Below the pieces are notes generated by a model, which saw only the letters and a list, made by a program, of their open reading frames with translations, was not told the origin of the DNA and did no database searches. From positions 1 through 53,597 of the IMG/VR virus record IMGVR_UViG_3300017758_000011: a stretch of DNA of 53,597 nt, one strand, 5' to 3'. Source of the DNA: a virus. Position numbers and translations under genes: made by a program. Below, piece by piece: positions 42,986-53,597 of this stretch (the stretch's first letter is position 1; each line of letters starts with the position of its first letter).

Positions 42986-43243
42986 ATGACATGGAAAGAT
43001 GAATTAAAAAAACAGTTAAACATGGATATTGGAAGCACTAATTATGCTAAGGATTTAGGAAATAGTGTGCAATTTGGCGAAGGTAATAATTCCGTCACTA
43101 TTGATAAGAACACTATACCCCATTTAGTAGAACAATTTGTTCAAGCGGAAAGGCCAATGTCACCTATTACCAGATTAGCCCAAATAACAACAAGTAGCGG
43201 AACTACTGATGATTTTGTTAGATGGTATATGCAACATAGGTGA
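42986..43243 (+). CDS. Late-operon protein with N-terminal W tag (1)
   Basis: An 85-residue protein starting MTWKDELKKQL. The rest is polar with a strand-rich centre and an amphipathic end. GGGTGATTTA fixes ATG 42986. First gene of the late operon. The tag is shared with many proteins downstream; the body has no recognisable family. Confidence 0.7.
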   Translation: MTWKDELKKQLNMDIGSTNYAKDLGNSVQFGEGNNSVTIDKNTIPHLVEQFVQAERPMSPITRLAQITTSSGTTDDFVRWYMQHR

Positions 43244-43247
43244 TTTA

Positions 43248-43355
43248 ATGACAAGATGTAATTACCTTGATTCATGGTTTGATTCTAAGTCAAAAGAGTT
43301 AGATGAAGCAGAATCTAAGGCCGAAAAAGATTTAATTACAGGTGATAAAAAATGA
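43248..43355 (+). CDS. Very small acidic protein
   Basis: A 35-residue acidic helical peptide with AGGTGATTTA upstream and a stop codon overlapping the next ATG. It has a DSWFD sequence but not the N-terminal tag. Its retention in the operon suggests it is real. Confidence 0.5.
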   Translation: MTRCNYLDSWFDSKSKELDEAESKAEKDLITGDKK

Positions 43356-43645
43356 GTTGGAGAGATATAGTAAGAAAAGGACATTGTGGAATGGAGAAAG
43401 GCAGTTGTAGTGGTTGTTCTTCATGCGAAAAACAAGAATTTGAAAAGAAACTTATTGGTAATCAAAAGAAAATTGATGCTAACAAAGATGGTAAAATAAC
43501 AGGTGAAGATTTTGCTATGTTAAATGAGACTAAAAAGGCCAAAATGGAATGCCCTAAATGTAAAGGAAAGGGTTGTGAGCATTGTAATAATAAAGGCTAC
43601 CACAGTAAATCAAAATCAAGAGGCGCATTTACAGATGAGAGTTGA
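43352..43645 (+). CDS. W-tagged protein with EF-hand and zinc knuckles (2)
   Basis: A 97-residue protein: tag MSWRDIVRKG, a C-x-G-C-x2-C cluster (residues about 12-25), a calcium-binding EF-hand loop D42-x-N-x-D-G-K-I-T-x-x-D53, then CPKCKGKGCEHC, a DnaJ-type zinc knuckle. An EF-hand loop beside zinc knuckles in so short a viral protein is unusual and resembles calcium-stabilised structural adaptors. The ribosome binding site is AGGTGAT. Probably a virion component that needs metal ions, by inference. Confidence 0.7.
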   Translation: MSWRDIVRKGHCGMEKGSCSGCSSCEKQEFEKKLIGNQKKIDANKDGKITGEDFAMLNETKKAKMECPKCKGKGCEHCNNKGYHSKSKSRGAFTDES

Positions 43646-43650
43646 TTAAT

Positions 43651-43827
43651 ATGACTTGGCAAGATGTTGTGGCTAAATACACTGAAAAGGATATTGAGCA
43701 TAGAGTCCAACAGACAGGATATTGTCGCAGGTGTCAAAAAATGGTGACTAAATACCAAAGGTGCGATTTAAACTTACCATCACCAAAAGCAGGAATAAAG
43801 CCATTTTGTCCAATGAAGGAGGAATAG
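43651..43827 (+). CDS. W-tagged zinc-binding protein (3)
   Basis: A 58-residue protein: MTWQDVVAKY tag, then CRRC and two more cysteines (CDL, CPM), a zinc-binding set. GTTGATTAAT precedes the ATG. Confidence 0.65.
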   Translation: MTWQDVVAKYTEKDIEHRVQQTGYCRRCQKMVTKYQRCDLNLPSPKAGIKPFCPMKEE

Positions 43828-43829
43828 TC

Positions 43830-44690
43830 TTGGATTGGTTTGGTGTTATAAAAGTCGAAGATATTGATTTTGAGATAGATAACACAGAAAGAGGTTTTGG
43901 GTATTTTACCTTTGAACCCGTTAATGAGGATAAGTTTGATGAAATATTAACAAAGCCAAATCCAACAGTATTAGATTTTTTACATAAGAAAATTAGAATT
44001 AATCCGGCTAATATCTATTCCTATCTAAAAGAAAGATTAGGCAAAGAACCAACAGATAAACAATTAATGGAATGGGTAAAAAGAACCATTATGCACGAAG
44101 CAATTCATGGCGGTATGGCAGAAGAACAGTTTGAAATGGCCGACCAACAAACAGAATATGCGGCATTTACAGGCCAATTCCCTGATAGCACATATCTAAG
44201 ACTAAAACAATATTTACAACACCCTGCAACAAGGCAACAAATAATAAATCCATTGGGTGCTATGTTTATTGGTCTTGATGATATGGGGGCTTATCAAAAG
44301 AACTCCACAAGAGTATTAAGAGAAATAGTATCATTTGTTGATTCTTTGACTGAGGATATTAGAAACAAGAAACAACAAGAAGAAGCCAAAGAACTCATAA
44401 CAAGATTAGAGGTTTTAGCAAGAAAAGCAGGAAAGCCACATATTAGAGAAATTGATGTTGAAGACATAAAGGTTTTAGTTGATAGATATGGAGAGCAGTA
44501 TAGAGATGTTCTTGTAACATTGTTTAAAAGTATTATGGGCTATGACTATGAAGAAACTGATTTTAGTCGGGAAAGGGCTAAAGACTTTGAGAAACAGGCC
44601 ACAACAGTAATGTCCACAACTGCCGGATTTGAAAGCAGACCGAGATATGGTAAGAAAAAGGAGGAAGAAAAAAATGGTAAAAGAAACTAA
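43830..44690 (+). CDS. W-tagged HExxH metalloprotease-like protein (4)
   Basis: A 286-residue protein that starts at TTG 43830 with AAGGAGGAATAG upstream; translation then gives MDWFGVIKVE, matching the tag. H89-E90-A-I-H93 is a zinc-metalloprotease motif, with further Glu residues (EYAAF) as the possible third ligand. The second half is helical with a basic Lys-rich end. In the late operon a protease is a good candidate for virion maturation. It is unlike the serine-type prohead proteases of HK97-like phages. An upstream in-frame ATG is rejected because it lacks a ribosome binding site and overlaps the previous gene. Confidence 0.65.
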   Translation: MDWFGVIKVEDIDFEIDNTERGFGYFTFEPVNEDKFDEILTKPNPTVLDFLHKKIRINPANIYSYLKERLGKEPTDKQLMEWVKRTIMHEAIHGGMAEEQFEMADQQTEYAAFTGQFPDSTYLRLKQYLQHPATRQQIINPLGAMFIGLDDMGAYQKNSTRVLREIVSFVDSLTEDIRNKKQQEEAKELITRLEVLARKAGKPHIREIDVEDIKVLVDRYGEQYRDVLVTLFKSIMGYDYEETDFSRERAKDFEKQATTVMSTTAGFESRPRYGKKKEEEKNGKRN

Positions 44691-45825
44691 GAAAAAGAAG
44701 GAGTTCCAAAACCACAAAGGAAACAAGGTGAAGCAAACTCAAGATTTTCCATTTATTGAAAATTTTAACAAGTGGCGAACTAATTGTCAGCAAATTAGTG
44801 GTGGCGACCTTCAAGTAAAGAATATACCTAATCTTTACAATATGCTAAAGAATCATTTGAAAGACCCATACATTAGAGGCGGTAGTCGTAATGATGGAAG
44901 AGATGGTGAAGGAGCAGTTCAATTTTTGAATGCTATAGAAGGATTTGTAGATAATCCCGATAATTTATTTACTGTTCAACAAGCACAACTAATAGCAAGA
45001 ATGGCTAATACTTTAGAAAAAATGAAAGATACAGGAAAAGACATAGGAGGCGACACTCCTGCTTATGACCCTGCATTTATTTTATTTACTGAAAAGCCAA
45101 AAAGCGCAACCGGAGAAACACTTGCAGTAAGAGAAGTTCAAGGACATTATGCGACTGAATGGTATTCTGAAAGAAATGAAGGCGTTAGTGCAGTTCCTAA
45201 AGCATGGTTGGCCGGAGAAAATCCTCCACATCAAGCATTGTTTTCCGAAACCGCAAATAAATATGCTAAACCAAAAGGGCTTCTTTATATTATGAAAGAC
45301 GCAGAAAACATGGAACAAGAAACTGATTTAGAAGTTGAAGTTGATACAATACCAAGCGGAGTTGATGAAGTTGATATTGATGAAATTAAGTCTGTTGAAG
45401 ATTTCTTTAATGGTGTAATTAAGAATACTGCTTTTTGGAACGCAGGTGGAAAACTTCTTGTTAATAAACTTAGACGAGAACTACAAGCAATTACTTTTAC
45501 TGTTAAACCTAATGAGCAAAACCCAATTAGGGAAATAGCAAATATTGGAAGAAAAGAAGAAAAAGATGCACTTGTTGGTAATGTGATTAGTTTCAAATTA
45601 ACTTCTACGGCATTACCTATGATTGGTTTAGTTGATAGAGCATTAAAGAGAGCCAATACCAACAAAGCACCAAACGGATATAGAGCGTGGCAGAATGCAA
45701 GAAAGACTGGTTTTGATTATAGAAAAACTGCAAGAGAAAAGTTCGGTGCGGATGGAACAGGAAAATATAGCCCCGATGCAAAAGTAATTTCTAAGATGTG
45801 GCAACAACTTCTATGGAGGAATTAA
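44674..45825 (+). CDS. Late-operon protein without the tag
   Basis: A 383-residue protein with a basic N-terminus (MVKETKKKKEFQ), then mixed helix and strand. A long helical region of about 90 residues is followed by beta-rich sequence. AAGGAGGAAGAAAAAA fixes ATG 44674, overlapping the protease gene by 17 bases. No known structural protein family is recognised; length fits a virion component. Confidence 0.65.
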   Translation: MVKETKKKKEFQNHKGNKVKQTQDFPFIENFNKWRTNCQQISGGDLQVKNIPNLYNMLKNHLKDPYIRGGSRNDGRDGEGAVQFLNAIEGFVDNPDNLFTVQQAQLIARMANTLEKMKDTGKDIGGDTPAYDPAFILFTEKPKSATGETLAVREVQGHYATEWYSERNEGVSAVPKAWLAGENPPHQALFSETANKYAKPKGLLYIMKDAENMEQETDLEVEVDTIPSGVDEVDIDEIKSVEDFFNGVIKNTAFWNAGGKLLVNKLRRELQAITFTVKPNEQNPIREIANIGRKEEKDALVGNVISFKLTSTALPMIGLVDRALKRANTNKAPNGYRAWQNARKTGFDYRKTAREKFGADGTGKYSPDAKVISKMWQQLLWRN

Positions 45826-45826
45826 C

Positions 45827-46063
45827 ATGACATGGGAAGATGAGATAAGAAAACAAAGACCGAGTTATAGTAGTTCTAAGAGCAAATTTTGGGGCGACAC
45901 ATATCGTGTTCCTAATGAATTAGGCAGAATTGCTGAAAAAATATCCAAAATGGGAGAAGAGGAAAGAAACAATCCCGAAGTTCAAAAAGACATTAAATAC
46001 ATTAAAGAACTTGTTGCCGAGCAAAAGAAACTACTGCAAAAGTATTTAGAAATGGTTGAGTGA
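45827..46063 (+). CDS. W-tagged protein (5)
   Basis: A 78-residue protein: tag MTWEDEIRKQR, a Ser/Lys-rich stretch, then a coiled-coil helix to the end. The gene starts two bases after the preceding stop. No family is recognised. Confidence 0.65.
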   Translation: MTWEDEIRKQRPSYSSSKSKFWGDTYRVPNELGRIAEKISKMGEEERNNPEVQKDIKYIKELVAEQKKLLQKYLEMVE

Positions 46064-46068
46064 TTATT

Positions 46069-46401
46069 ATGTGGAAAGAAATATTAAAAATTGATATGGA
46101 AGAAGCCCGCAGATTAGGAGATAAATATGCTCCCGAAGATATGGAAGAAGCAAGAATAGAAGAAATAAGAGCCAACTTCACAAAAGTAAAACCTACGATT
46201 TTGAGGACATTAGAAGCATATACTCTTCCCGATTTAGAGGGAATGGACTCAAGACATTTAAGAAGCACACTTGTTAATTTAATGAGAGCCTTACCGCTTG
46301 CCCCTCGTTTGCATGGTAGTCATACACTTAGGGCAAGAATGCAAAATAAAGAAATAATCGAAGAGTATTTTGATGCTTTAGAAAACAATATACTAAGGTG
46401 A
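46069..46401 (+). CDS. W-tagged helical protein (6)
   Basis: A 110-residue helical protein starting MWKEILKID, a form of the tag lacking the residue between Met and Trp. AGTGATTATT precedes the ATG. The body is helical with a hydrophobic, Leu-rich second half. Confidence 0.65.
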   Translation: MWKEILKIDMEEARRLGDKYAPEDMEEARIEEIRANFTKVKPTILRTLEAYTLPDLEGMDSRHLRSTLVNLMRALPLAPRLHGSHTLRARMQNKEIIEEYFDALENNILR

Positions 46402-46406
46402 TTATT

Positions 46407-46742
46407 ATGTGGGAAGATATACTTAAAAGAAGAGATGCAAGGCAGTATGCAGAAGGTTTTGAAAATGACAATGAATTTAATGATGTGATTGGTGATGAAT
46501 TTGATTATGTCATGGGCGGAATTAAGGAAAAATATTATTCATATTTTGATGAAGATAGAAAAGAATATTTTGATATTCTCATACATAAGACTGGAAGATT
46601 TTTAAATCAATTTGATTATCGAAGGACTCTTAGAGGCGTTAAGGGTGTTAAGAAAATGGTTAATCAATTTGATTTACCCGACCTTGATTTTCTAATAGAA
46701 GTGTTAGAACTTAAGGCAAACCAACCCGAAACCAACTCTTAA
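46407..46742 (+). CDS. W-tagged helical protein (7)
   Basis: A 111-residue protein starting MWEDILKRRD, very close to gene (6) in its tag but not in its body, which is acidic and Phe/Tyr-rich before a basic stretch. AGGTGATTATT precedes the ATG. Confidence 0.65.
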   Translation: MWEDILKRRDARQYAEGFENDNEFNDVIGDEFDYVMGGIKEKYYSYFDEDRKEYFDILIHKTGRFLNQFDYRRTLRGVKGVKKMVNQFDLPDLDFLIEVLELKANQPETNS

Positions 46743-46753
46743 GGTGATTATTA

Positions 46754-47419
46754 ATGTCAGTTAGTCGTAAAAGGTGCGGCCTTTGTCAGCACGAATATAG
46801 AGAAGAATTGGAGCGTATGCTTGAAACAGGCGAAGCCACCTGCGATGAATTAGATACAAAATATAATTGGAGAAGTGGAACTGCTGCTCAACATCAAAGA
46901 AATCATATGGGCGATTATAAAATGTCGTCTAATCCAAAGTGCGCTCTTTGTATAGACCCCATGAGAAAGCATTATGAACAGGCAATTAATGAAGGTAGCA
47001 TTTCAACAGAAGCAGTTGCCACCGCATTAAATACAACACAGGCTCAAATTCAAAGACATATGAAACATCATTTGATGCCTATTGTTCAAGAATCAGCCGC
47101 TATGATGATAGCAAAGAGAGAAGTAAATGAAGTTGATTTACTTTCTAACAATGTTGCTAAATTAGATACACGATTAGAACAAGTATTCAATGAGTTAGGA
47201 AATGACCTTGACCCAAAGATGATTGACGCTTTGACAAAACTCGCAAGAGAAATTAGAGAGTCGCTAAAATATCTTATGGAGTTCAAAGGTAAATTGGTTC
47301 ACAAGAGACAAGATACAATTGTTATCGCCCAAATGCAAATAGTCCAAGAAGTGTTAGCCCAAAACAATCCGGAGATTTGGTTAGACATTAAAAAGAAAAT
47401 GCAGGAGAAATTACAATGA
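46754..47419 (+). CDS. Zinc-finger HTH protein, candidate small terminase
   Basis: A 221-residue protein without the tag. Two tandem repeats of about 50 residues each begin CxLC (CGLCQHEY, CALCIDPM), continue with an HTH-like pair of helices and end in a His pair (HQRNHM, HMKHHL), so each looks like a zinc-stabilised helix-turn-helix. The C-terminal 90 residues are helical (coiled). DNA-binding HTH plus a helical oligomerisation region, in the late operon, fits a small terminase subunit, but no large subunit is in the window. Confidence 0.6.
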   Translation: MSVSRKRCGLCQHEYREELERMLETGEATCDELDTKYNWRSGTAAQHQRNHMGDYKMSSNPKCALCIDPMRKHYEQAINEGSISTEAVATALNTTQAQIQRHMKHHLMPIVQESAAMMIAKREVNEVDLLSNNVAKLDTRLEQVFNELGNDLDPKMIDALTKLAREIRESLKYLMEFKGKLVHKRQDTIVIAQMQIVQEVLAQNNPEIWLDIKKKMQEKLQ

Positions 47420-47577
47420 TTTGGAAAAGCATTTTAAAATATGATATGCTGAATGAAATAAAGAAGGCTCTACGAATAATTGAAGAATTAAAACAAGAAT
47501 ACAAAGATGAAAGAATCCAAAAATTAGAAGATATATTTTACGACGCATTAGAAAATTTAAGAGGTTATAGGTGGTAA
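47416..47577 (+). CDS. Small W-tagged protein (8)
   Basis: A 53-residue protein starting MIWKSILKYD, then one long charged helix ending LRGYRW. Its ATG overlaps the preceding stop (ATGA). Essentially a tag with a helix. Confidence 0.65.
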   Translation: MIWKSILKYDMLNEIKKALRIIEELKQEYKDERIQKLEDIFYDALENLRGYRW

Positions 47578-47578
47578 T

Positions 47579-47848
47579 ATGGCTTGGGAAAGAATAGTTA
47601 AGAAAGATGAAAAAGAATGGGAAGATTTAGGCGATGTTCTTACAGGAGAATATGACTATGAGAAATGGAGAAACAAACCGATTCCAAATGATTTAAAAAA
47701 ATTACAAGCATTGTATAATACTGCGCCCCCTTCTGCCAAAAAAGATGTTAAAATTCTTTTTGAATCTGCCAAAGGTCAAAGTAATGAAAATAAACAACAG
47801 GTCTTTGATTTAATCAAAGTTATTCTGCAAGCAGTTAATGGAAAGTGA
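47579..47848 (+). CDS. W-tagged protein (9)
   Basis: An 89-residue protein starting MAWERIVKKD followed by an acidic stretch and a helical C-terminal half. AGGTGGTAAT precedes the ATG. No family is recognised. Confidence 0.65.
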   Translation: MAWERIVKKDEKEWEDLGDVLTGEYDYEKWRNKPIPNDLKKLQALYNTAPPSAKKDVKILFESAKGQSNENKQQVFDLIKVILQAVNGK

Positions 47849-47852
47849 TTGA

Positions 47853-50180
47853 ATGTCTTGGTTTGAATTATTAAAAATGATTCCGTTAGATAACTTTACT
47901 TTAGCGTGGGTTATAACTAACGCCAAAGAAACCGAGAAAGCAATAAAAGAAATAGAAAATCTATCAAAGACTCCTAAAGCACTTAAAGAATTATTAAGAA
48001 GTGTTGAAAATAATCAGTTAGATTTGCAGAATTTAAAAGATTTATACGGTCAGCCTCCACATGGCGACCAAACTTTAGAACAGATGAAGGAAAATGTTCA
48101 AAAAATAAAGGAAGCCGCACGATTTTTGACAATTGATGAAGTTAAAGAGTTAGTTAATGAAGCAACCGAAGCAAAAAGAAATAATAATCACCAAAGAGTT
48201 AAACAAATTTTAGAAAATTTAGACCAAAATGCTGATTTGTCCGTTGCTACTCTTAAAAGAAATAGAGATTTAAGAGATAAATTAGATTTATTGAGAATGA
48301 AAGGCGATAAATCGACTATAATTTTTGATAATCCTCCAAAAAATAAAAGTTTAATTAAAGAATTTGCTAAATTAATTAATGGAACAGTAAAGGGTGATGG
48401 AATTTTAGTTAATTTTAAGTCGGAAAGTGAAATTGTTGCCTTAATGTCAATAAAAATGAATAAAAATCGAGATAAAGTCTTAGATTCTAAAGCAGTTGTA
48501 GATAGAAAAAATAAAATTAAAGAAATTTACAACAAAATGCAAGGAGAAGAGAGAAATTTGGGTATGAAACTCAATATTGGCGATAACAATATTGAAATTG
48601 ATGACTTAGTTAGACAAAAAAAGATATTTATTGCTTCGGATAGGAAATTAGAATTAATTGAGCCTTTTTCGGAAGGTTCTGTAATAAAATATGTTAGAGC
48701 AGTTGATAAAACTAAAGGTAGTGTAAGAGCATTTAGGCCAACAACACTTCCAAATGGAAGAAGTCTGCCTTCTGTTCTATTTTTAGAGAAATCAAGTTCT
48801 AACAGTATGAATCTGAATCCATATTCTTCTTTAGTTATAACAAATGACTTTTCCGATAGCGCAACATGGCAAAAAAAATTCTTTGATACACTAAGAAGTA
48901 ATGAAATGTTGAGTATAAAAGAGGCTGAACAGATAATTGTTGAAGAAATCTATCAAGCAGTTATAGAAGATGAAGAAAGAACAATTAGTAATCTATATGT
49001 TGGAAGTCTTATTGGAGAAAACGGCATTCAAGGTGCAAAAACTAAAACCAAGAAGGCGGTAAAGAAAGAAATTAGAAATTTTATAAATTCAAGCAGGATT
49101 TTAGGAAACCAAGTAGAGGATGCTAAACTAAATCTACAATCTGAGCAACTGCAATACTTGGGCGAGGACTTTACCCTTCAAGAAGCAACTAATTTTGAAA
49201 AATTCTACAAAACTCTAAGCGAAAGCGACCCCGAAGATTTCCCAATAGATGATTTAGAAATTAAATACTTTAGAAACGGTAGAGCGTTAGACCCCGAAGA
49301 ACCTCAACCTATTTTAGAAGATGGTGTTCCAAAAAGAGACAGTAAAGGCAATATTGTTTTTGAAAATGCAAATGTCAAGCAGTATGCTAATCATGCTTCT
49401 GTATTTTTAGCCGGAGAAAAAATTAATCCAAAAGATGCTTATTCAATAGGAATGAAAGCAACAAGTCGTGAAGCCCCTTTGTCGGCTCAAGCGAAAGTTG
49501 ATAATTTGATTAAGGATTTAGAAAAAAGAATACGCAAGGCTAAGGAAAAGTTGGATAAGTATTCTAAATTTAGTGCAGAAAATCTGCCTAAAGATGATGA
49601 AGGAGAGCCAACTATGAAACCTCTTCAACTACAAGAAATACAAGAAGCAATAAAAAGAAATATTGCCCGTTATGAAATGCGACTTAAACAAACTAAAGAT
49701 AGAAAGAAATCCGGCAAACCAATAACAGACTTTGGCGAACAAACTGCAAAATTAAGAGATGAACTTTTAACAACTGATAGTTTTGCAGAATATATTCTTA
49801 CTATGGCGAGAAAATTAAAAGATAAAGGAGGATTAGAAGCGTTTGTTAATACTATTGATAGGTCAGCAAGTGCTTTAGAACAGATAACTCCGGAAAGAAG
49901 TTTAAGTTTCCTTGCACAAATGGCTCAACATACTAATAACAATGAAATAAGAGAAGCCTTTATTAAAATTGATTCTAACGCAGAAACAGCGAAAGCCGAA
50001 GCGCAGAAGTTAAATGAGCAAATGCCTAATATACTACAAACAATGCAGGAAGAATTAATAGGGGCTTTTAAGAACAAACTACAAGAATTTGTTAATAAAC
50101 CAGCGACTTTCCCCGACAATCAAGTAATAAATGCAAAGAAACAATTTATCAATGAAAATCTAATAAGATATGCAGACTGA
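47853..50180 (+). CDS. Large W-tagged protein (10)
   Basis: A 775-residue protein starting MSWFELLKMI. Long helical, Lys/Glu-rich stretches dominate, with a beta-rich region (about 240-340) and a coiled coil near residues 550-620. No enzyme motif is recognised. Size and place in the operon suggest an inner-core, scaffold or tail-associated virion protein. AGTGATTGA precedes the ATG. Confidence 0.7.
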   Translation: MSWFELLKMIPLDNFTLAWVITNAKETEKAIKEIENLSKTPKALKELLRSVENNQLDLQNLKDLYGQPPHGDQTLEQMKENVQKIKEAARFLTIDEVKELVNEATEAKRNNNHQRVKQILENLDQNADLSVATLKRNRDLRDKLDLLRMKGDKSTIIFDNPPKNKSLIKEFAKLINGTVKGDGILVNFKSESEIVALMSIKMNKNRDKVLDSKAVVDRKNKIKEIYNKMQGEERNLGMKLNIGDNNIEIDDLVRQKKIFIASDRKLELIEPFSEGSVIKYVRAVDKTKGSVRAFRPTTLPNGRSLPSVLFLEKSSSNSMNLNPYSSLVITNDFSDSATWQKKFFDTLRSNEMLSIKEAEQIIVEEIYQAVIEDEERTISNLYVGSLIGENGIQGAKTKTKKAVKKEIRNFINSSRILGNQVEDAKLNLQSEQLQYLGEDFTLQEATNFEKFYKTLSESDPEDFPIDDLEIKYFRNGRALDPEEPQPILEDGVPKRDSKGNIVFENANVKQYANHASVFLAGEKINPKDAYSIGMKATSREAPLSAQAKVDNLIKDLEKRIRKAKEKLDKYSKFSAENLPKDDEGEPTMKPLQLQEIQEAIKRNIARYEMRLKQTKDRKKSGKPITDFGEQTAKLRDELLTTDSFAEYILTMARKLKDKGGLEAFVNTIDRSASALEQITPERSLSFLAQMAQHTNNNEIREAFIKIDSNAETAKAEAQKLNEQMPNILQTMQEELIGAFKNKLQEFVNKPATFPDNQVINAKKQFINENLIRYAD

Positions 50181-50199
50181 ACAGAAGAGGTATGATATT

Positions 50200-52680
50200 A
50201 TGGCACTAAGCGAAGAAGAAATACAAATGTTGAATTTGTCTGCCGAAAAAGTAAATGAATTAGCAACTGCTAATCCATTAACACGAAGACAATTGATTTC
50301 AAAAATAGTTAATCAATTTAAAGATAAACTAAGAGACGAGGCAAGGACAATTGACGACACAGAAGAAAGACAGGCTATGCTTAATTCCTTAGAAGAAAAA
50401 GGAACAGAAGTTAGAGGACATATTAAAGACCGTATTAAGGGAGAGGCAGGGGGAGCAAAGACTACTCAAGCATCTTTTAATCAAGTATTAAAACCATTAA
50501 CACAAATGAATCTGTATGCAGACGGCCAATTAATTAATGAAAACTATCTTTTAAATGAAGAAATAAAAGGAAAGATAGACATAAGAAATCCTAAGCCGGA
50601 ACTATTAGATAGACCGGATATTCAAAGAATGCTAACTGCCGAAGGAATGACTGAAGCGTTTAGAAAAAATGTGCAAAAAATCCTACAAACTCTTGGAGAT
50701 ATTTCCAATGTTAGAGAATATATTCAACTTAAGAGCAAATTCCCACGCAACAAATTCTTAGGTGCAATCAATGTTTCTAAGAAACAAAACAGAATACAAG
50801 TTTATGACTATTGGGCTGATATAGGCAAAAAATATGATGATTTTGAAAATGACTTAGCGGCATTTTTTGTTGCAGTTAAAAATGTTGAATGGGAAAATCC
50901 ATCAGTAGCAAAATTATTTGAAAAATTATACAAAGATGTAAATGATATTAACTTAGAATATATCGCAGAATTTACAGATGTTGAAGAAGAATTCTTAGCA
51001 CCAAAGCACAGATTTTTTAATTTGGTTGCATATAGAATGATGTTAGAAGGTTTAACAAGAAGAGAAGATGCCGAATCAAATTTTGGTGAAGAAGGAGAAA
51101 CCCCACAAGACCAACAATATGCTGATATTAACCAAAAATTAAGAGAAGAGTTAGAATCAGCCGTAGCAAGTTCAAGTAGCACACAAGGAGATACAATAGA
51201 CATAGATGATTATAGAAGTGAATTGTTTGATGAGCCACAATGGGAAGAAGACTATGAATCAGTATTTGGTGCAGCAGACCCCTTATTGATTTATGAATAC
51301 CAAAAGGGCGAAAGACTGGTTGCTATTAACGATGCGATGGAAAGAGAATTATTAAAAGTTTTAAAAGAGGTTGAAGATGCTATTGATGATGGGAAGGGTG
51401 TTTCATTAGACACATCAACAGATATTGAAAATTGGTTTGATGAATTAGATGATACTACGACTCTTGATGGAGAAGTCAAAACAATGGCATTACCAATTTC
51501 TGTTTTGAGTAATACCGCTTTCGCTAATTTATATGATGAGAATAAATTCAAATCAATAGCAAACAATAAAGACATAGGCTTAGATAATCTTGATACCATT
51601 AAGAATTTCTTTGGGGATTTGTATAATCTTTTGAGTAGTGAAGATTTTAGAGCAGAAGTAGAAGCAAGAACCACAAAAGGAAGAAGGAGAGGTTCTGTTC
51701 AAGATTATAGAGAATCAAGAGGAACAAGTATGGAGGGATTAACCGGAAGTGCAAAAGTTCCAATGTCATTAAATCAAAAAGGAGAATTTAGGGGAGTGTT
51801 TGCTAAATTTCAAAGCGAACTACAAAAGATGATGGATTCAGCAATTGATTATTTCTTTGACCCGTTGTATAGTGGATTACTACCATTAGAAATACCTCGT
51901 TTTGGTTCAAGTATTGGGTCAAAGGTTATGCAGACTTTAAGTTTAGATTTAGGATTAGAAACTGTCATGTCGGCTTCATATGATACCCTGTTTGAAGGTT
52001 CAGTAGAAGAAGTTGATGAAGGAGACTTAATAGCAATTGCTGATTTCTTAGATAATATATTTATGCCGAGCGTTAAAATTGATGCGGATATTATTACAGA
52101 AGGAGAATTTGCCGCAGAAGCATTGACTGAAATTTTTGGAAATAAAGAAGCAAATAATAATTATTGTGCCGCTTTAATTTATCATTTCATGGAAGATATA
52201 GGAGATTTAAGCAGGGCAGAAAATGATTTTGATACAAAGACTATCAAAGAAAGAGCCGATTTGTTTGATAAGCAATATATGTCAAGAAAACCATTCCCTG
52301 TATTTGCACTTCCTCATTGGCTTGACATGAATCAAGGCATTCTAACAAAGAAAAGCCCTGCCATGAAAGAAGCATATAATAGACTAAAAACTATCTTTGA
52401 AAGCGCACAAACAGACTTACCTGTTCTATTGCATAAACTATTGAAAGCACATGACGCAGTAAGAGAACAATTAGGAAAGCCTCTTGTTTATGGTTATGTT
52501 CCAATGAATGAATATGGAATTGAAAGAGTCATTAACAAGATGCAAGTTGATGAAAATATTGACTTGACAATGTTTGAAGTAGAGCAAATCGTAAAGGCGG
52601 TTGATTCACATAGCAATATTTCAACCGAATACGGAATTAGTAAAGAACAAGTTTATTTGATTAAAGCAAATTTTAGGTGA
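50200..52680 (+). CDS. Largest late-operon protein
   Basis: An 826-residue acidic protein lacking the tag (start MALSEEEIQML, with GAGGTATGAT upstream). Helical throughout, with acidic low-complexity zones near residues 320-370. No motif recognised. It follows the tagged 775-residue protein and may form a complex with it. Candidate core or portal-like protein, undecided. Confidence 0.7.
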   Translation: MALSEEEIQMLNLSAEKVNELATANPLTRRQLISKIVNQFKDKLRDEARTIDDTEERQAMLNSLEEKGTEVRGHIKDRIKGEAGGAKTTQASFNQVLKPLTQMNLYADGQLINENYLLNEEIKGKIDIRNPKPELLDRPDIQRMLTAEGMTEAFRKNVQKILQTLGDISNVREYIQLKSKFPRNKFLGAINVSKKQNRIQVYDYWADIGKKYDDFENDLAAFFVAVKNVEWENPSVAKLFEKLYKDVNDINLEYIAEFTDVEEEFLAPKHRFFNLVAYRMMLEGLTRREDAESNFGEEGETPQDQQYADINQKLREELESAVASSSSTQGDTIDIDDYRSELFDEPQWEEDYESVFGAADPLLIYEYQKGERLVAINDAMERELLKVLKEVEDAIDDGKGVSLDTSTDIENWFDELDDTTTLDGEVKTMALPISVLSNTAFANLYDENKFKSIANNKDIGLDNLDTIKNFFGDLYNLLSSEDFRAEVEARTTKGRRRGSVQDYRESRGTSMEGLTGSAKVPMSLNQKGEFRGVFAKFQSELQKMMDSAIDYFFDPLYSGLLPLEIPRFGSSIGSKVMQTLSLDLGLETVMSASYDTLFEGSVEEVDEGDLIAIADFLDNIFMPSVKIDADIITEGEFAAEALTEIFGNKEANNNYCAALIYHFMEDIGDLSRAENDFDTKTIKERADLFDKQYMSRKPFPVFALPHWLDMNQGILTKKSPAMKEAYNRLKTIFESAQTDLPVLLHKLLKAHDAVREQLGKPLVYGYVPMNEYGIERVINKMQVDENIDLTMFEVEQIVKAVDSHSNISTEYGISKEQVYLIKANFR

Positions 52681-52684
52681 TAAT

Positions 52685-52990
52685 ATGACATGGAAAACTA
52701 CTTTAAAATCTGTCAAAAGAATACCTTATCCACAGGTTTTACCACAAAAACCGCCACCCTCACCACCTGCTGACCCTAATATGGAAGAATATAGAAATAG
52801 AAAATATCAAGGTGGAAAATTAGAATATGAAAACCCAATAAGTAGAAAACATATTTTAGAACCACAAAAAAGAAAAGAAGTGCAGAATCAAATAAAAGAA
52901 CTACAAAGGCAACTTGAAGAAAAGAAAAAAGAATTGGAAAGATATTCAAAAGAAGAAAGACAGGCAAGTGCTATGTTTAGAAACGATTAG
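52685..52990 (+). CDS. W-tagged Pro-rich coiled-coil protein (11)
   Basis: A 101-residue protein: MTWKTTLKSVK tag, a proline-rich linker (QKPPPSPPADP), then a charged coiled coil. The linker separates tag and coil as expected of an anchored fibre or adaptor. AGGTGATAAT precedes the ATG. Confidence 0.7.
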   Translation: MTWKTTLKSVKRIPYPQVLPQKPPPSPPADPNMEEYRNRKYQGGKLEYENPISRKHILEPQKRKEVQNQIKELQRQLEEKKKELERYSKEERQASAMFRND

Positions 52991-52999
52991 GTGAGTAAT

Positions 53000-53341
53000 A
53001 TGACATGGAAAGATATAATAAAAGAAGAAGAATTACCGGAAGATGTAAAGAGAGCAAGAGAAAGAGTTAAGCAGGGATTACCATCAAAGGAGAGGCCTCT
53101 TATTCCTCAATTTGATGACGATTCTAAAAAGTCATCAACTGATTTGCCCGATGAAACAAAAGAAGCATTAAAAAAACTCACTGGACAATTAAAAGAGGCA
53201 TTTGAATCAATAGACCACAATGCATTATTAAGTGTTTTAAATCCAACAGGCAAAAAACTGTCTATGACTCAACAAGAAATAGTTGATAGAATGGTTAAAG
53301 ATACTATTAACCGAATTAAGTCCAATAGATTATACAAGTGA
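53000..53341 (+). CDS. W-tagged helical protein (12)
   Basis: A 113-residue protein starting MTWKDIIKEEE, helical and acidic, with a Ser/Lys-rich linker. AGGTGAGTAAT fixes ATG 53000. No family is recognised. Confidence 0.65.
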   Translation: MTWKDIIKEEELPEDVKRARERVKQGLPSKERPLIPQFDDDSKKSSTDLPDETKEALKKLTGQLKEAFESIDHNALLSVLNPTGKKLSMTQQEIVDRMVKDTINRIKSNRLYK

Positions 53342-53346
53342 TATTT

Positions 53347-53597
53347 ATGTCAAGTTGGGAGGATTTTTTGAAAGCCCGTTATTATGACGGTGCTATGCAA
53401 ACTAATCCTCAATTGATAGCACAACAACTACGACAAGATTTTAGCAAAGCCCCTTCATTACACAAAGCGATTACTAATTTTATACCTATAATAGAAGAAT
53501 ACGCTTTCAAGGACAAAGCAAGGGCAAGTCAATATAAACAAATTGCCGACAATCTAAGGAAGGTGGCTTCCGATGTTAAACAAATGATAACCGAATA
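53347..53597 (+). CDS. W-tagged protein, cut by the window end (13)
   Basis: At least 83 residues, starting MSSWEDFLKARYYDG (one extra residue before the Trp). Helical so far; the frame runs off the right edge without a stop codon. AGTGATATTT precedes the ATG. Confidence 0.6.
   Translation, partial: MSSWEDFLKARYYDGAMQTNPQLIAQQLRQDFSKAPSLHKAITNFIPIIEEYAFKDKARASQYKQIADNLRKVASDVKQMITE

Follow-up and report, generated by a model that had tools for sequence, protein, structure and literature searches.

A short tryptophan motif shared by unrelated late proteins and the scaffold C-terminus is a probable head-loading label in Magrovirales-type viruses

In several tailed phages, such as P22 and phi29, the C-termini of scaffold proteins bind the inside of the shell. 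The scaffold of phage 80alpha and the SaPI1 protein CpmB have a common C-terminal capsid-binding motif that occupies the same site, the bound element being an amphipathic helix with a terminal RIIK hook (PMC5644958). The targeting of proteins to heads is known from a handful of model phages (T4, P1, giant phages), each with a small number of cargoes. In T4, the internal proteins and Alt form a diverse, fast-changing set with a conserved short capsid-targeting leader, and the internal proteins are injected at infection and act against host defences (PMC3012670, PMC5694885). In phage P1, the N-terminal residues of DarB suffice to direct a reporter into the capsid (PMC9024508), and in encapsulins, cargo-loading peptides dock on the inner side of an HK97-fold shell (PMC7355545).

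The window analysed here, a stretch of 53,597 nucleotides (positions 1 to 53,597 of IMG/VR virus record IMGVR_UViG_3300017758_000011), belongs to a Magrovirales-type archaeal tailed virus in which otherwise unrelated late proteins begin with a common short motif, hereafter the tag. Its closest kin in logic is the shared scaffold motif of 80alpha and CpmB, as in both cases a short peptide at the scaffold C-terminus is common to other proteins and the capsid protein has the HK97 fold. In 80alpha, however, binding is proven and one C-terminal competitor (CpmB) changes capsid size, whereas the tag has a different sequence, is known from sequence data, and is carried by dozens of proteins per virus, mostly at the N-terminus. 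As with the T4 leader, a short peptide is common to otherwise unrelated, fast-changing proteins of the head region; unlike the T4 leader, which is removed by a protease, the tag has no visible cleavage site, also occurs in internal and C-terminal copies, is present on far more proteins per virus, and matches the virus's own scaffold C-terminus. The P1 DarB signal differs in that it was shown for one large protein and was not reported as a short motif of many proteins. Encapsulin peptides are likewise short, lie at either terminus of unrelated cargo, and belong to genes near an HK97-fold shell gene, but they differ in sequence and serve a cellular compartment with usually one or a few cargoes and without a scaffold, DNA packaging or a tail. 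The system here has terminase, protease, and tail genes and would resemble an encapsulin in its working without being one.

The early genes of the window encode a family B DNA polymerase split over two frames, an RFC-type clamp loader (AAA ATPase), an ATP-dependent DNA ligase, and a Cpn60 (GroEL-type) chaperonin, and a TFIIB zinc ribbon was detected with a score just below the cut-off. The window stops before the capsid and protease genes, and these features were therefore read in relatives (94-96 kb, G+C 34-37%), which encode an HK97-fold capsid protein (SU10_MCP above cut-off in Pfam; HK97-fold PDB matches), an S78 prohead protease (Peptidase_S78 above cut-off), a terminase, and tail genes; the nearest named capsid proteins, at 24% identity, are those of the haloarchaeal Druskaviridae HCTV-1 and HVTV-1. 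This gene content and capsid kinship fit the ICTV description of the Aoguangviridae, order Magrovirales: viruses associated with marine archaea that have a split family B polymerase, clamp loader, DNA ligase, TFB, and GroEL-type chaperonin, two opposed gene clusters in genomes of ~90-100 kb with low G+C, an HK97-fold capsid protein distantly related to that of Druskaviridae, and an S78-type maturation protease (PMC10768690). The presumed host, Poseidoniales (Marine Group II), is taken from the ICTV profile (PMC10768690). Additionally, record G011 (IMGVR_UViG_3300021958_000021, 184.7 kb) contained two differing capsid gene regions, at 70.5 and 162 kb, and may be two virus genomes joined at assembly. 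Contigs with magrovirus-type capsid genes (L288-L291) were also observed in GTDB MAGs labelled Maricaulis and Altibacter, a placement that is probably bin contamination.

All 13 tagged starts that the sequence-only reading had placed in the window were found, each with the N-terminus assigned to it. The tagged genes and their neighbours are as follows, with the evidence for each call in brackets (SD, Shine-Dalgarno-like sequence).

42986..43243, plus strand: tagged protein of 85 aa, MTWKDELK (start and SD)
43352..43645, plus strand: tagged protein of 97 aa, MSWRDIVR (start and SD, orthologues)
43651..43827, plus strand: tagged Cys-rich protein of 58 aa, MTWQDVVA (G007 71353 homologue, MSWRDVVLK)
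43830..44690, plus strand: tagged protein of 286 aa with a TTG start, (M)DWFGVIK, and a zincin-like HEAIH motif (HExxH) (SD, orthologues)
44674..45825, plus strand: protein of 383 aa without an N-terminal tag, C-terminal motif SKMWQQLLWRN (orthologues)
45827..46063, plus strand: tagged protein of 78 aa, MTWEDEIR (start and SD)
46069..46401, plus strand: tagged protein of 110 aa, MWKEILK (start and SD, orthologues)
46407..46742, plus strand: tagged protein of 111 aa, MWEDILK (start and SD, orthologues)
46754..47419, plus strand: untagged, highly conserved neighbour of 221 aa with a Cys-rich N-terminus (orthologues)
47416..47577, plus strand: tagged protein of 53 aa, MIWKSILK (start and SD, orthologues)
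47579..47848, plus strand: tagged protein of 89 aa, MAWERIVK (start and SD, orthologues)
47853..50180, plus strand: tagged protein of 775 aa, MSWFELLK (tag kept in all close relatives)
50200..52680, plus strand: untagged conserved late protein of 826 aa (orthologues)
52685..52990, plus strand: tagged protein of 101 aa, MTWKTTLK (start and SD)
53000..53341, plus strand: tagged protein of 113 aa, MTWKDIIK (start and SD, orthologue in G001)
53347..53597, plus strand: tagged protein, MSSWEDFLK, that passes the window end and has 87 aa in G001 (start, orthologue)

A clear Shine-Dalgarno-like sequence (GGTGA, GGAG, AGGTG or GTGA) was seen upstream of 12 of the 13 tagged starts, with that of 43651 being weaker, and a gene caller ignorant of the tag (using open frames, start codons, and Shine-Dalgarno strength) recovered nearly all 13. 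The starts that had been chosen on the basis of the tag also held. The TTG at 43830 has GGAGG upstream, is also TTG in the 91%-identical relative G001, and has orthologues beginning M[SKG]WFDI[IL]KVEDI; the ATG starts at 46069 and 46407 are backed by the orthologues MWKNVLKIDMDEARRLG and MWQDVIKIRDARQ. The pattern first described, a Trp followed by aliphatic residues at W+3 and W+4, applies to most of the set but not to 42986 (MTWKDELK), 45827 (MTWEDEIR), and 52685 (MTWKTTLK), which have no aliphatic residue at W+3. Four neighbours had been described as untagged; 46754, 50200, and 43248 indeed lack the motif, and the first of these is probably not cargo, whereas 44674 carries a conserved C-terminal copy.

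Loss of the motif from orthologues with conserved bodies, the outcome that had been named as counting against the tag, was not what the relatives displayed, as their orthologues retain it. The orthologues of 43830 (MDWFGVIK) begin MDWFEIIK, MKWFDIIK, MGWFDILK, and MSWFDILK, those of 47853 (MSWFELLK) begin MSWFELLK, MNWFEQLK, and MSWFEQLK, and those of 46069 (MWKEILK) begin MWKNVLK, MWKKILK, and MTWQTILK. In the G001 counterpart of 53000, the C-terminal body is the same and the middle is different, with the tag kept as MTWKDILK. The 43352 family, with an EF-hand-like loop and a Cys-rich tail, is the largest tagged family (34 members). Several proteins of the 43830 family (G006 L034 6621-7463, G007 71174, and the G010 and G035 homologues) have the C-terminal end GAVTTTSxPAMFNKVVRGRKKRRKK, and a similar stretch comes after the tag in proteins of ~50 residues (L088, L102); this element is possibly another signal.

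To extend the set, the DNA of IMG/VR was scanned for a tag-coding pattern, and the contigs and proteins of relatives were taken from the matches listed. From the fetched sequence, at least 482 different proteins with the tag were collected; their median length is 112 residues, and by body they form at least 263 clusters, 202 of which are singletons. Most contigs among the matches listed carried several to ~20 tagged genes each. The same capsid protein family was encoded in 23 of 28 contigs tested and was not detected in the other five. According to a calling rule that ignored the tag, 304 of 1,371 distinct proteins bore the strict tag, compared with a mean of 1.16 and a maximum of 5 when the first 30 residues were shuffled (200 shuffles). 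The proposed check for enrichment at position 3 agreed: the core W..[ILVFM][ILVMFA][KR] begins there in 245 proteins vs. ~0.46 per other position. Chance or a start-codon artefact is ruled out by the shuffles combined with the tag-blind start calls supported by Shine-Dalgarno sequences. Because part of the sample had been picked by the tag, a tag-blind sample was also drawn with the capsid protein as query; among its loci with more than 7 kb upstream, one or more tagged genes were present in 45 of 59, invariably on the strand of the capsid gene and never on the opposite one.

The consensus of the tag is M-[ST]-W-x-[DN]-[IV]-[LI]-K, with MSWxDILK as the eight-residue form. By position, it reads M; S, T, N or K; W; K, E, F or Q; D, N, S or E; I (76%); L (71%); and K (96%), and beyond this Lys (after W+5) the information falls to 0.03-0.30 bits per position (262 non-redundant proteins). 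All six codons are used for Leu at W+4, and synonymous codons vary freely at Ile, Leu, and Lys; therefore, selection acts on the peptide. The claim that the bodies are unrelated was borne out by the 263 clusters and by 120 representatives in which only MxWxxILK was common. The same representatives had almost no Pfam, PHROG or PADLOC families in common, and a shared domain behind the tag is thereby ruled out. Recognisable bodies are few (a PAP2 phosphatase, a GNAT acetyltransferase, a pentapeptide-repeat protein, and HExxH-bearing proteins) and do not contradict a role as injected proteins. No charge bias was observed between tagged bodies and other late proteins (P = 0.59), which rules out basic, DNA-binding cargo as a group; the kind of bias that marks DNA-associated internal proteins is thus missing, a point against cargo loading. 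As a separate observation, tandem tagged paralogues in L193 of G009 and L118 of G015 share a further N-terminal stretch behind the tag, W..[IV]LKNIQISSQRTSSKDYV or W..[IL]LKxQIxxxRQKLR, which suggests local expansion of tagged genes.

The position of the tagged genes within the genome is highly restricted. The late strand holds 302 of 303 tagged genes, and the sole exception, the early-strand DNA ligase of the window (17014-18549, MTWERMARLL), fits a loose form of the pattern and was set aside as a chance match. When the late clusters of seven genomes were compared on either side of the capsid gene, tags were found on 65 of 189 upstream (head-side) genes vs. 1 of 100 tail-side genes (Fisher P = 3e-13); the capsid, portal, and terminase genes carry no tag, and tail genes almost never do. 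Therefore, the label marks head-side proteins outside the standard parts of shell and tail. A 536-residue late protein of L038 (G006; start 89240, minus strand) includes a LAGLIDADG-like stretch (AFIDSDGYITLDRNMNPRVGLVATGERG) that may be an inserted homing element.

A sister form of the motif was found at the end of the scaffold. In the product of the gene directly preceding the capsid gene, an S78 protease is joined to a scaffold-like region that is acidic and coiled-coil, and the last 10-20 residues of this fusion (MDWADIHKMVGGNL, MDWSDIHKMVGGY, MSWNEINNYVAQFEE, MTWDDVHSLVRGN, MSWDEINELVRELQ or LSWEQVNDLAREVRGL) contain motifs such as MDWADIHKMV and MSWDEINELV. Of the tag-blind loci found via the capsid gene, 82 of 82 have this motif (79 by the strict pattern), and its Trp is invariant in an extended set of relatives (183 of 183). 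The same kind of motif closes a second coiled-coil head protein of ~80 residues (MDWSDIHKMVSKME or MSWDDIEKFVGGR). The tag-derived pattern M.W.[DNSEKT][IVL] matches the C-termini of both proteins and, elsewhere, only a handful of ~3,460 other non-N-terminal Trp, several of which are genuine tags whose start was wrongly placed. As a variant rather than an identical copy, the scaffold motif has His or Asn at W+4 vs. Leu or Ile in tags and lacks the Lys in distant clades; when ranked by a tag profile, most scaffold sites fall within the top 0.02-0.4% of windows and a few only within the top 2%. Neither scaffold motif nor tags were found in the head genes inspected of the haloarchaeal HCTV-1 and HVTV-1. 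The end of the protease domain holds a Phe-Asp-Ile-Leu-Lys stretch (GINPEAKFDILKQ) that was weighed as another copy of the motif but discounted, as it is probably part of the S78 fold. Additionally, a small conserved protein encoded just upstream of the portal (G035 8635 in L165, G006 85325, and homologues) has MSWRELHKGIV or MSWKQLKSGILNDELPRDR near its N-terminus, which resembles the scaffold form.

Copies with the tag signature also occur at C-termini and in the stretches between domains. A given body may have the motif at its N-terminus in one virus but further inside, preceded by an extra domain, in a second virus (GYVGKSWKNILKKDPKKGTG vs. MWQKILKADPKKGTG); near-identical bodies (MWQKILKADPKKGTGKKPKG vs. 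GYVGKSWKNILKKDPKKGTGKKPKG) and a PAP2-type phosphatase (MSWFSILKKRKWEG vs. GYVKKSWFDILKKRTWQG) display the same alternation. Start-site miscalls may account for some of these internal cases, but not for those in which no Met lies near the Trp. The C-terminus of the 44674 protein (ISKMWQQLLWRN) is retained in all close orthologues, and distant orthologues have overt C-terminal copies (KKSWQDILRW, LKSWIDILRN or KKSWAEVLVW). Judged by these sequences, the tag is a short motif that is not bound to one position, as a strict N-terminal leader would be. Single-chain AlphaFold prediction gave a helix at the motif with moderate confidence (pLDDT ~65-75). With the scaffold C-terminus tethered to the capsid protein by natural stop readthrough, a first run gave a poor model with a pLDDT of 50, and in a second run the capsid protein was folded with a pTM of 0.63.

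Combined, the head-side late location and the sister motif strongly support the earlier proposal that the tag is what brings proteins to the capsid core or to a common scaffold. The tag is probably a portable, helix-forming motif that loads cargo into the Magrovirales-type prohead; we infer docking, receptor, presence in the virion, and delivery from sequence. In the most economical reading, a scaffold docking helix would have been reused as a cargo label, with the tag being a putative sister copy of the peptide that ends the protease-scaffold fusion and the small coiled-coil head protein. The scaffold, the small head protein, and the tagged proteins would then occupy like sites during prohead assembly, probably on the inner face of the capsid protein, so that docked tagged proteins would already be enclosed when DNA packaging starts, would travel in the head, and would probably be delivered along with the genome. 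For the capsid protein itself as the receptor, we put the chances at about even. Given the precedents of T4 internal proteins, which are delivered, and of P1 Dar packing, a similar role at infection is plausible for this fast-changing tagged set. A bolder version, in which the scaffold docking helix was copied to dozens of proteins per genome to make an open cargo system in these abundant viruses, with any labelled gene product carried and delivered, could prove right or wrong with equal probability.

The alternative that survives best shares prohead entry with the head-loading reading and differs in the receptor: the tag and the scaffold C-terminus would dock on another head component (the scaffold coiled coil, the protease domain or the portal), with the cargo in an inner core rather than lining the shell. 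The presence of the motif on both the scaffold fusion and a second coiled-coil protein of the same module, which could co-assemble, is in keeping with this arrangement, but the equivalent shared C-terminal motif in 80alpha binds the capsid protein (PMC5644958) and no datum here points to another receptor, leaving it rather unlikely. A T4-style capsid-targeting sequence, which would direct proteins to the prohead core from their N-terminus and afterwards be cut away by the prohead protease, would account for an N-terminal peptide common to unrelated, fast-changing proteins, and the viruses encode an S78 prohead protease with the tagged genes in the head module. Nevertheless, no conserved cleavage site was found within 22 residues, and the tag thereby fails one testable defining feature of the T4 sequence; it is also unlike MKTYQEFI, and the internal and C-terminal copies are evidence against a simple cleaved leader. 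The proteolytic removal suggested by the sequence-only reading is therefore not upheld, as the removal of a leader makes no sense for such copies, and we regard a T4-style leader as improbable.

Docking on a non-structural hub, be it a host factor, the virus's own GroEL-type chaperonin or a compartment for replication or assembly, is more doubtful still: the virus encodes a Cpn60 chaperonin and the motif would fit a hydrophobic groove, but tags are confined to head-side late genes and nearly absent from early and tail genes, and the scaffold C-terminus matches the tag. Finally, a nucleotide-level translation signal or likeness inherited through gene duplication, suggested by the frequent ATGAGTTGG and by the tandem paralogues, is refuted as a full account by the freely varying codons of Ile, Leu, and Lys, the mostly unrelated bodies, and the internal and C-terminal copies away from start codons, and deserves hardly any weight.

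An earlier description of the tag was not found in the literature searched, a search that did not cover the first magrovirus paper. Within one uncultured order of ocean viruses, up to ~20 proteins per virus carry one and the same eight-residue motif, which spans at least 263 body clusters, nearly all without known function. If the tag is a head-loading label, cargo loading would be tied to scaffold docking, a defined peptide would be available for encapsulation work, and the internal, probably injected proteins of these viruses could be listed from metagenomes. If the open cargo system is also true, the tag would read out the injected protein arsenal of an uncultured virus order from sequence alone.
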